DNA of 64,000 nucleotides from Chondrocystis sp. NIES-4102. Its GTDB lineage: Bacteria; Cyanobacteriota; Cyanobacteriia; Cyanobacteriales; Xenococcaceae. This document shows positions 40,491-55,441 of the stretch, piece after piece. The notes beneath the pieces are model-generated. The model had not been told where the DNA came from. It worked only from the letters and a program-made list of their open reading frames with translations, and did no database searches. The stretch's first letter is position 1, and the number at the start of each line of letters is the position of its first letter. The translations under genes and the position numbers were made by a program. Location of the stretch: positions 682,001 to 746,000 of the forward strand of contig AP018281.1 in assembly GCA_002368355.1 (NCBI GenBank), read 5' to 3'.

Positions 40491-40654
40491 CTTCCGTCAC
40501 CCTTGTACGGGTCAAAGAATTTCCAACTAATATTTAATATTAATAAATTTTAAGATTGAAAACTTAAAGCGGAATTTCTTTTGTAAGTAATAACGAAAAT
40601 GCGGTCTAGAAGCCTTTAGCTTTTAATACTAAGGTAATCGATCGCAACTGTTTG

Positions 40655-41521
40655 ATGAATTGTTTTGTAATTCTTATGGCTAATGACAATACTGAACCAT
40701 CTGCTTTAAGTGATGTGGAATGGGTGCAAATTGCGCCAGGTAAAGTTATAGTTGCAAACCGAGAGCGTGGCTGGTTATATCAACCTCGTTCAGCAGAAGA
40801 TCGCTTTTCTCTACCAATGCAAGGTGTTGGCAATATTGCTACATCTTACAAACTATTAGATACAGCGATCGCAGTGGCTAAATATACTATACAGTCTAAC
40901 CTTAGACCACCTACTTTAACACCCACTCGTTGGATATGGCGATTAGCAAGTGCTTATCATTTGACTTTCCCTGTATCCAAATTAATGACAGATGCAGCTA
41001 AAGGTTTTTCCGCCAGCAACCGTAATCATTTAGCAGCATGGGCTTTAGAAAAGGCTCAAGAAGAACAAGGTCATGATCGCCTCGCTTTACTTGATATTCA
41101 ATCTTTAGGATATGAAGCTGAAGCAGTCGTTAAGGCATTAGTTCCTTCCGCAGCAGTTTTATTGGTCGATTACTTGCGTCGTAGTACACAAGATGACGAT
41201 CCCATTGATTGTGTAGGCTATTCCTATACGATGGAGCGTTTATCTTTAGGTATTGGGGATGATTACATCGAAAAAATTGAGGCATTATTACCAGCCGATA
41301 TTAATGCGACTCGCTGTTTACGGGTACATAGCTCTGTGGGAGCAGATGCAGATCACGTAGATGAAACAGTTGCAATGGTAGCTTCTCTAACTCCTACTGA
41401 ACGAACCCGTGTAGCTAGAGCTTGTTATGAAACTGCGCTGATGTGTTTTAGTCCACCACCTGAAAATTATATTTTAGATCAACAACTTCAGGATATTTTA
41501 CAACCTTTAAAGTTTAGTTAA
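40655..41521 (+). CDS. Heme-oxygenase-like helical protein (possible HDO-type metalloenzyme)
   Basis: 288 residues, mostly helical, with no named family I can assign with certainty. An 80-residue N-terminal part precedes a region with spaced metal-ligand-like residues: E-x-x-H in EEQGH, a glutamate in YTMERLSLG, and two histidines with acidic residues in HSSVGADADHVDE. That order (ExxH, E, H, DxxH) fits heme-oxygenase-like di-iron oxidases and oxygenases, such as the enzymes that N-oxidise or cleave small substrates. ATG at 40655 or 40676 (MANDNTEP) is possible; neither has a strong ribosome binding site. It lies 86 bases upstream of a small acidic peptide gene and near the NRPS. Confidence 0.6.
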   Translation: MNCFVILMANDNTEPSALSDVEWVQIAPGKVIVANRERGWLYQPRSAEDRFSLPMQGVGNIATSYKLLDTAIAVAKYTIQSNLRPPTLTPTRWIWRLASAYHLTFPVSKLMTDAAKGFSASNRNHLAAWALEKAQEEQGHDRLALLDIQSLGYEAEAVVKALVPSAAVLLVDYLRRSTQDDDPIDCVGYSYTMERLSLGIGDDYIEKIEALLPADINATRCLRVHSSVGADADHVDETVAMVASLTPTERTRVARACYETALMCFSPPPENYILDQQLQDILQPLKFS

Positions 41522-41607
41522 TTTCATTAGCTGAATCAATAATTTAAGAATAAACAAACAATTTTTAATATTATCTATTGCCGTCAATACAAATTAGGAG
41601 AATTAAC

Positions 41608-41754
41608 ATGAATACTGCAACCGCTACTATAATCAAATCTGTTGATGATACTCTTGATATTTTAGCTCAATTTGCCCTTGAAATCGATTTGGAAAGTATT
41701 TTACATGAAGAATTAGAGTTAGGTTTAGCTAGTGATATTAGCAACGCTTTCTAA
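41608..41754 (+). CDS. 48-residue acidic peptide gene with strong RBS
   Basis: Begins MNTATATIIKSVDDTL and ends GLASDISNAF. The predicted peptide is strongly acidic (eleven Asp/Glu, one Lys) and lacks cysteine and aromatic residues apart from two Phe. It should form an amphipathic helix in the centre (DILAQFALEIDLESILHEEL). AGGAGA lies seven bases before the ATG, the clearest ribosome binding site in this part of the window, and an intrinsic terminator follows 42 bases after the stop. It is not seen elsewhere in the window. It could be a RiPP-type precursor or a small regulator of the preceding enzyme, or, less likely, a chance frame in an sRNA. Confidence 0.6.
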   Translation: MNTATATIIKSVDDTLDILAQFALEIDLESILHEELELGLASDISNAF

Positions 41755-41796
41755 TTGATTAAAGCTACGAGAAATCAAGATTAAGTCAATAATTGA

Positions 41797-41828
41797 GCAG
41801 GTGTTAAGGCATCTGCTTTTTATTTTTT
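41797..41828 (+). terminator. Intrinsic terminator after the small peptide gene
   Basis: Arms GCAGGTG and CATCTGC (one G-T pair) around TTAAGG are followed by TTTTTATTTTTT. This closes the transcription unit of the acidic peptide and possibly of the heme-oxygenase-like gene before it. Confidence 0.8.
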
Positions 41829-41898: not shown

Positions 41899-42616
41899 TT
41901 GTTAGCTGATTATGAAATATTATCTTTGCCAAAAGTAAGCCTGGAAACTAAGGAGTTGCTCCCTGAATTTTCTGGTATATATTATGTCGTTGATGAAAAT
42001 AAAATAGTCTGGTATATCGGCAAGGCTAAAAATATTCGTAAACGTTGGCAAGGTAAATCTCATCATCGCATTTATCAATTAAAACTCTTAAAACATAAAT
42101 ATTTCGATATCTTCTATGAATATATTGATTTATTTCAGTTAGATATAAGAGAAAAACAACAAATAGCCAAATATATTCCACATCTTAATAATAGTCCTGT
42201 TAAAAGTAAAAAAGTTTATCCTACAGAAACTTTATTGCGAGAGACAATTGTTAAAGTATAAAATTTTGCTTTTATTTTAGGTATAGAACCACCTCGAAGA
42301 GAAATAAAAGAGCAAATTAATATAGCATGGGTAATTAAAGAACAATGGTTAGATTTACCAATTATTCATTTATCTTTCAACTTTTTAGATTTCCAAGCTA
42401 TATTCGAGCCTCAGTCTACAAATGAACAAGAAGCATTAATCAAAGCTGTATTTATTACTCGTAAAGCTTACCATTAGTAAATGGGAAAGTTTACCCAAAA
42501 AATATCCTTACATATTTCGCTTGCGTGTTGATGGCTATATTACTGAATTTAACTACGTAAATATTTGGATAGCTGATTGCCTGACACAAGTAGCTAAAAG
42601 TATTGATACCTGGTAA
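41899..42616 (+). pseudogene. GIY-YIG nuclease-domain gene broken by one stop and one frameshift
   Basis: The first 120 codons hold a GIY-YIG domain: SGIYYVVDENKIVWYIG, then KNIRKRW, with the glutamate in LREKQQ-like context. They start at TTG 41899, eight bases after AAAGGGAGA. A TAA at 42259 stops this frame. The same frame then stays open for 71 more codons (FAFILGIEPPRREIKEQ ... FITRKAYH) to a TAG at 42475. Deleting one T near 42474 joins it to a coding-like frame (SKWESLPKKYPYIFRLRVDG ... AKSIDTW) ending with TAA at 42614. Read across both lesions it is one protein of about 238 residues, so this is a recent pseudogene, unless the lesions are sequencing errors. Confidence 0.7.
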
Positions 42617-52597: not shown

Positions 52598-54423
<1,826 letters not shown>

Positions 54424-54565
54424 TTTTCTAGTATAAATAAATTACTATTTGAATCTATTTTTCCCAGAAATAACATCAAAGTTGATTTATAAAAGTGTTT
54501 TAATTCTTCAAGCAGGCTTAAAGGACAATTAGTAATCAATTATCAATTATCAATTGTCCATTAAA

Positions 54566-55441
54566 TTAAACCATCATCATATCTAACTCATCTTCTTTCA
54601 CTTCTTCTTTCCCTGCTGGAGGATTGAGGTAGTAGTCTGATAATAGGGAGAATAAATCTCTGTCTTGTGCTTCGTTGGGTACAACTCCTTCAGGTGCTGC
54701 TAAAATCTGATCGGCAATGTTTAGATAGTAGTCACAGACGAAAGCTAGGGAAGGATCACTTTCTGCCATTTCAAATAAGGTTTTACCTTTAACACGAGAT
54801 ACGCGAATATCTTCGATTAATGGTAGGATTTCTAAAACTGGCATGGGTACGTGTTCAATATATTTATCTATTAAGTCACGTTTAGAAGTACGATTACCAA
54901 TTAAACCAGCTAGGCGCAAGGAGTGAGTACGAGCTTTTTCTCTAACTGAAGCAGCGATACGGTTAGCAGCAAACAAGGCATCAAAACCATTATCAGTAAC
55001 AATCATGCAGTAGTCTGCATAGTTTAAGGGTGCAGCAAAACCACCACATACCACGTCACCCAAGACATCAAATAAAATTACATCGTATTCGTCAAAAGCA
55101 TTTAATTCTTTGAGTAGTTTTACGGTTTCTCCCACTACATAACCACCGCAACCAGCACCCGCAGGTGGGCCCCCTGCTTCTACACAACTAACGCCACCAT
55201 ACCCTTGATAGATAACATCTTCTGGCCAAATGTCTTCGTAATGAAAGTCTTTTTCTTGCAAGGTATCAATAATGGTGGGAATAAGAAATCCTGTCAGAGT
55301 AAAGGTACTGTCGTGTTTAGGATCGCAGCCAATTTGTAAGACTTTTTTGCCTCTTTTTGCTAAGGCTGCGGATATGTTGCAGCTAGTTGTGGATTTGCCT
55401 ATTCCGCCTTTGCCGTAAACTGCTAATCTTATTTGTCCCAC
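54566..55441 (-). CDS. chlL: Light-independent protochlorophyllide reductase, ATP-binding iron-sulfur subunit L
   Basis: NifH-like homodimer that carries electrons to ChlNB using ATP. Walker A is [12 protein letters not shown]. The two cluster-binding cysteines are in [16 protein letters not shown] and [12 protein letters not shown], and the switch region is DVLGDV. The C-terminal tail runs to an acidic-methionine end. It starts at GTG 55441 with GAGGAG ten bases upstream, the usual ChlL N terminus. The order chlL-DUF5331-chlN with a 142-base gap indicates an operon. The enzyme is oxygen-sensitive, which fits expression in low-oxygen or dark conditions. Confidence 0.97.

Follow-up and report, generated by a model that had tools for sequence, protein, structure and literature searches.

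Within one clade of heme-oxygenase-like (HDO) enzymes from cyanobacteria, the enzyme gene is obligately paired with a downstream gene for a short acidic peptide, and the commonest neighbor of this pair encodes a STAND protein of HTH-NB-ARC-WD40 composition. The pair described here lies in a window of 64,000 nucleotides from Chondrocystis sp. NIES-4102, this being the whole stretch of DNA that was analyzed (Table 1). With its constant peptide pairing and usual STAND neighbor, the arrangement does not look like a chance pairing but like a module for peptide modification and sensing that has yet to be described, and we hold it marginally probable that it is a dedicated module in which the HDO oxidizes the tail of the peptide encoded beside it, with the STAND protein as sensor of the product. 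A preliminary description of this DNA had cast the small frame as either a precursor or a small protein partner, and these prove to be the right pair of options for the readings weighed below; neither the sorting of the tails into classes nor the peptide genes in tandem nor the STAND component figured in it.

Table 1. Features of the enzyme-peptide locus, in window coordinates.
Feature	Position	Strand	Basis
TGCGGTC ... GATCGCA arms before the enzyme start	40600..40646	+	weak
HDO-type enzyme gene	40655..41521	+	PF14518 (below gathering), 3dde match, full-length homologues
Predicted iron ligands E130-x-x-H133	41063..41074	+	near-invariant in 76 homologues
Predicted iron ligand E187	41234..41236	+	invariant in 76 homologues; aligned to 3dde ligand Glu
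Predicted iron ligands H218, D224, H227 (HSSVGADADH)	41327..41356	+	alignment with 3dde HSKIDAKH
AGGAGA, ribosome binding site before the peptide gene	41596..41601	+	read in the sequence
48-residue acidic peptide gene	41608..41754	+	downstream conservation, pS/pN, profile matches beside the enzyme
Variable C-terminal tail LASDISNAF, candidate core	41725..41751	+	tail classes follow enzyme clades
Terminator-like hairpin and T-run	41795..41828	+	hairpin scan, position after the peptide stop

The pairing rests on a census of related loci. The enzyme is present in 16 of the 27 genomes of the window's own family (Xenococcaceae, judging by locus L009) and in 71 of the 218 genomes of the Nostocaceae, another family of the same order which includes Nostoc, and it is rare outside these two families. 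Most genomes with the enzyme carry one copy and some carry two; copies are found also on two Nostoc plasmids. About 100 loci were collected, 98 of them with a full-length enzyme, and a small same-strand frame lies downstream of the enzyme in all 98, either directly or past a tandem second enzyme. For the locus cut off by a contig edge (L141), the profile search still detects the beginning of the peptide. Across 245 genomes, matches to the main-type peptide profile lie next to an intact or broken enzyme gene, apart from a 43-residue short frame in G537 and a contig-end match in G543. HDOs outside the clade (L007, L034, L035, L156, L157, L158) have no acidic small frame downstream. Taken together, the 98 loci, the near-absence of orphan peptides and the lack of the frame beside outside HDOs establish that the pairing is obligate within this enzyme clade. 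The peptide evolves under purifying selection (pooled pS 0.64 versus pN 0.275 for its frame among near relatives). The frame is hence real and conserved, and a chance ORF is ruled out by its occurrence at 98 of 98 loci, by pS/pN and by the scarcity of orphan profile matches. Retention of the frame in the neighborhood and synonymous-biased substitution, both proposed as checks in the preliminary description, are thus borne out, and a search for clade enzymes lacking the frame found none among the 98. Tandem copies of the peptide gene occur at L024, L025, L098, L119, L149 and L084, with two or three copies each and the maximum of three seen at L024, L098 and L149. Tandem or divergent duplicate enzymes are also seen in near relatives (L084, L162, L163), L084 having two enzymes followed by two peptides.

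The enzyme was previously assigned to the HDO family, and homology to solved structures supports this assignment. It matches PF14518 weakly (2.5e-5, under the gathering score) and PDB 3dde at 2e-9 with phmmer and at 2.6e-14 with a profile built from 76 homologues; the latter match implies a seven-helix heme-oxygenase fold. The second match of the same profile, weak when taken alone, is the HDO MboA (E 0.19). Homologues share 43-72% identity across the full enzyme length. Translation might begin at the ATG at 40655 (MNCFVILMAND...) or at an alternative ATG at 40676, with the stop at 41521, and the former is favored by the in-frame N-terminus kept among homologues (MNCFVILM in near relatives, MRNDFLID in Nostoc); residues are numbered here with M1 at 40676. 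The E-x-x-H, E, H and D-x-x-H motifs singled out earlier as candidates for a di-iron center correspond to E130, H133, E187, H218, D224 and H227, a 3-His/3-carboxylate set that matches the ligands of 3dde at all six aligned positions. Across the 76 aligned sequences E130, H133, E187, H218 and H227 reach full invariance or a conservation of 90% or more; D224 falls under this cut, with D or E in most of the sequences. The E130-x-x-H133 motif aligns with EEAGH of 3dde and DEFGHD of MboA, and D134, right after H133, is the equivalent of MboA D90; the H218-D224 spacing carries a two-residue insertion with respect to 3dde, that is, to the usual H-x3-D-x2-H. An AlphaFold2 model of the enzyme from a two-sequence input proved too poor for use (mean pLDDT 44, alignment depth too shallow), and the predicted metal site therefore rests on alignment to solved HDOs. 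On these grounds we describe the enzyme as a predicted HDO-type di-iron oxidase, in which the six residues would bind iron.

Upstream of the enzyme, the arms listed in Table 1 recur in several near relatives as the inverted repeat TGCGGTC...GACCGCA. Two further motifs, ATACTGAATC and GCGTAATGAC, are enriched before Nostoc enzymes, and the idea that they represent upstream operators was dropped because they are the coding start MRNDFLIDTES, their spacing is in multiples of three and they are absent upstream of STAND genes. About 17 Nostocaceae loci, in addition to L010 and L011, carry an AraC regulator and a 188-residue Pfam-less protein upstream on the other strand.

The observation as first described is confirmed, the signals reported for the peptide gene included, with one overstatement in its wording. 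The 86-base gap from the enzyme stop to the small frame and the AGGAGA site were both found again as described. For the intrinsic terminator, a hairpin (41795-41818) followed by TTTATTTTTT is indeed present; the terminator scan as such performs no better than chance (1 found versus 1.2 expected), and the terminator is made plausible by its position just past the peptide stop. The wording "almost purely acidic" was an overstatement, since 10 of the 48 residues are acidic (net charge about -9) and the peptide is otherwise hydrophobic. The peptide contains no canonical double-glycine site, and an NCBIfam scan returned a match to the ammosamide/lymphostin leader in 2 of 45 peptides, which at E 0.05 was taken as chance.

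Across the clade, the acidic helix of the peptide is conserved and its C-terminal tail varies, the consensus being xExSLExLNxIExDLExIxxxEFxQG and then LPSDxxxxxx. The tails fall into about ten classes, including DISNAF, PSDIPMADF, PSDTEFGxM, PSDIDGSDV, ILISRCCF, LLTQLGSF and NIPSSF; a third peptide architecture ends, for example, in LLARGAV, and some classes bear a Sec-signal-like or membrane N-terminus. Mapped onto the enzyme tree, tail class changes 10 times, the minimum possible, against a mean of 53.8 for shuffled labels, and in genomes with two pairs (G474, G351, G638, G566, G585, G509, G510, G578, G564) each class stays with its own enzyme clade. A Nostoc sp. C052 peptide (L010:12798-13088) has repeated METTPATVIERQS before the conserved helix. 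Two hallmarks of RiPP systems can be recognized here: an encoded precursor with a conserved leader and a variable core (helix, about ten classes, tandem copies), and a dedicated co-occurring enzyme, one-to-one in 245 genomes bar one fragment and one contig end. We nonetheless describe the pair as RiPP-like and not as a RiPP, the peptide being a putative substrate of modification.

Several observations weigh against the tailoring reading, among them the missing double-glycine site and the quarter or so of loci with no STAND gene close by. A further one is that no peptidase, transporter or exporter, or second tailoring enzyme is common to the neighbors of the pair within 7 kb. Most RiPP clusters differ in this respect, although not every family has such genes locally. 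Another is that the helix is the most conserved part of the peptide, which would also suit a binding partner. The main rival explanation builds on the last two points, and takes the peptide as an obligate partner protein (an activator, an assembly factor or a redox-gating subunit) and not as a substrate, with the enzyme acting on a small molecule. The amphipathic acidic helix, modelled by AlphaFold2 from two sequences as two helices with moderate confidence (pLDDT 75), agrees with this explanation, as does the precedent of MboA, which needs a dedicated partner, MboB, for its full reaction (PMC13185094). A structural subunit, however, has no need of some ten unrelated tail classes or of tandem copies, Sec-signal-like or membrane N-termini would be odd on the partner of an enzyme that has no such signal, and most of the peptides lack cysteines or cofactor motifs. 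On balance, we regard a partner-protein role as somewhat unlikely.

The STAND protein that most commonly neighbors the pair is about 1174 residues long and combines PF00931 (NB-ARC, 9e-15), which places it with STAND/NB-ARC proteins, with C-terminal WD40 repeats and an HTH_3-like N-terminus (E 9e-5, just below threshold). Among the 89 loci with enough sequence, its gene is convergent and at most 1.5 kb downstream in 66, and is never upstream within 1.5 kb (four cases within 7 kb); in about a quarter of the loci it is not nearby. The window lacks it, and the same genome has an unlinked copy at about 2.56 Mb (G000:C1:2560261-2561913). In the position that the STAND gene takes at other loci, the window shows a GIY-YIG-like frame of 120 codons (41899-42261; UvrC-related, weak), and the stretch after it looks degenerate. 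In the 27 family genomes, STAND matches of at least 555 bits, a cut-off set after the data were seen, occur in exactly the 16 enzyme-positive genomes, the best match in the 11 enzyme-negative ones scoring 537.7 bits. In the STAND tree, a single group holds 62 of 63 linked copies and 6 of 6 unlinked copies of enzyme-positive genomes, and six other copies also fall into it, as does one copy of a genome that lacks the enzyme (G661, L245). L209 is a further unlinked STAND partner, that of locus L031. Proteins of the same STAND clade are found without an enzyme-peptide pair at L207, L208, L210 and L211, convergent to another operon that encodes a GDSL lipase, a KASIII-type synthase and a ThDP enzyme (Pfam-checked in L207 and identified by similar start sequences in the other three), so that the partners of this STAND clade include other small biosynthetic operons as well.

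The two halves of the STAND protein have different histories. When tail classes were compared with the trees of the enzyme, the WD40 half and the NB-ARC half at 54 loci, they changed 6 times on the enzyme tree, 9 times on the WD40 tree and 16 times on the NB-ARC-half tree, against about 31.5 times when shuffled. Segments sliding along the protein yield 17-19 tail-class changes to about residue 550 and 8-10 beyond, and this step sits at the NB-ARC/WD40 domain boundary. The patristic correlation of enzyme and WD40 half is 0.82, that of enzyme and NB-ARC half 0.52, and that of the WD40 and NB-ARC halves of the same protein 0.49. Genus-wise gene conversion was rejected as the source of the N-terminal disagreement, the N-terminal tree fitting genus no better than the other trees do (24 versus 26 changes). 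A ligand-matched sensor with exchangeable switch modules would show the pattern observed. On the other hand, the WD40-coding end is the part of the STAND gene nearest the pair on the DNA, and linkage under recombination could therefore yield agreement between WD40 half and enzyme without recognition. The more ambitious proposal of a new peptide-signal/receptor system is in our opinion doubtful but conceivable: a self-contained oxidase would make a modified ribosomal peptide, which would serve as ligand for an APAF1-like switch of HTH-NB-ARC-WD40 type, whose WD40 half co-evolves with peptide class while its NB-ARC half is freely exchanged, and such systems would provide multicellular cyanobacteria with parallel, non-crossing signaling channels.

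The exchange of WD40 and NB-ARC halves is also compatible with a conflict or immunity module, in which the STAND protein would act as an APAF1/NLR-like guard of the pair, or the peptide as an effector held in check as long as the STAND protein is not triggered. The patchy distribution and the plasmid copies point the same way; moreover, conflict systems of multicellular bacteria typically feature STAND AP-ATPases with repeats, and modified peptides serve as effectors in some of these systems (PMC7159879). Against this, the N-terminal domain is HTH-like and not a known killing domain, and PADLOC returned no match for the enzyme and only weak repeat or ATPase matches for the STAND protein. Nor were phage copies found: a phage or viral origin was rejected, since phage records held no relative and a viral-contig scan yielded none. 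We consequently judge a conflict role to be quite unlikely.

Proximity, in the window only, is what would place the enzyme in a small-molecule pathway with the NRPS located 1.2 kb away, the small frame being incidental. The NRPS is encoded on the other strand and no NRPS family is common to the neighbors of other loci, whereas the small frame is retained in all loci under purifying selection. This explanation is virtually untenable, having been refuted by the neighborhood census, and the NRPS mentioned in the preliminary description is incidental. Beyond the NRPS, the window carries genes of the Oxidored_nitro and NifH/frxC families (52598-55441), which are probably parts of a light-independent protochlorophyllide reductase.

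Returning to the tailoring and sensing reading, the HDO-type di-iron oxidase would recognize its own ribosomal peptide by the conserved acidic helix, which would dock the peptide while the short variable C-terminal tail is oxidized. Both steps are proposed by analogy with MboA, the mangotoxin HDO, which holds a tripeptide on Fe1 through the carboxylate of its C-terminal residue and oxidizes that residue (PMC13185094); the terminal residue would likewise be the likely oxidation site here, its carboxylate ligating Fe1, and the tail might also be cleaved or released. The WD40 half of the STAND protein may then read the peptide or the enzyme, and its HTH half may switch transcription, the gene of the STAND partner normally lying a short way downstream in convergent orientation and, in the genome of the window, in trans. 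Should the peptide prove to be the substrate, the pair would form a two-gene pathway with an HDO as its class-defining enzyme, and about 100 natural enzyme-peptide pairs with ten tail classes would constitute a ready specificity series for a versatile oxidase fold. APAF1-like STAND proteins are abundant in multicellular cyanobacteria. The mostly open-access literature searched holds no record of ligands for such bacterial receptors, and if the STAND link is functional, the peptide would provide a defined candidate.

Among known systems, MboA (PDB 9YPI/9YPL/9YPM) resembles the enzyme in its HDO fold family, its E-x-x-H-D motif and its remaining ligands. It differs in that its tripeptide substrate comes from ATP-grasp ligases, with no ribosomal precursor and no STAND protein, and in that its partner is a flavin/Fe2S2 reductase; its match to the enzyme profile is, as noted, weak. 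In the literature consulted, the link of HDOs to ribosomal peptides consists so far of VarO, a heme-oxygenase-like protein of thiovarsolin biosynthesis whose deletion alters peptide oxidation (PMC6511847; reviewed in PMC13108848). Like the enzyme studied here, VarO belongs to a ribosomal peptide pathway, but it plays an accessory part to YcaO-TfuA in an actinobacterial cluster of seven genes, whereas here the HDO is the sole tailoring enzyme beside the peptide. The CADD-type self-sacrificing pABA synthase offers a precedent for an HDO acting on protein residues (PMC13108848), although those that it cuts are its own, and its match to the enzyme is partial, at 17 bits against a cut-off of 200. 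The nearest solved structure by sequence, 3dde, a Shewanella protein of heme-oxygenase fold and unknown function, has the same ligand pattern, but it and other PF14518 proteins are shorter, and the cyanobacterial HDOs that are related to the enzyme but fall outside its clade have no peptide frame downstream. STAND regulators and AP-ATPases such as AfsR and APAF-1 share with the STAND partner an NB-ARC switch and a repeat sensor, its N-terminus being HTH-like as in transcriptional STANDs, and differ from it in that the latter is linked to a peptide and HDO pair. As the preliminary description had anticipated for the pairing, we found no described system composed of HDO, peptide and STAND protein in the mostly open-access literature. 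The parts are of known kinds, and it is their combination that appears to be new.
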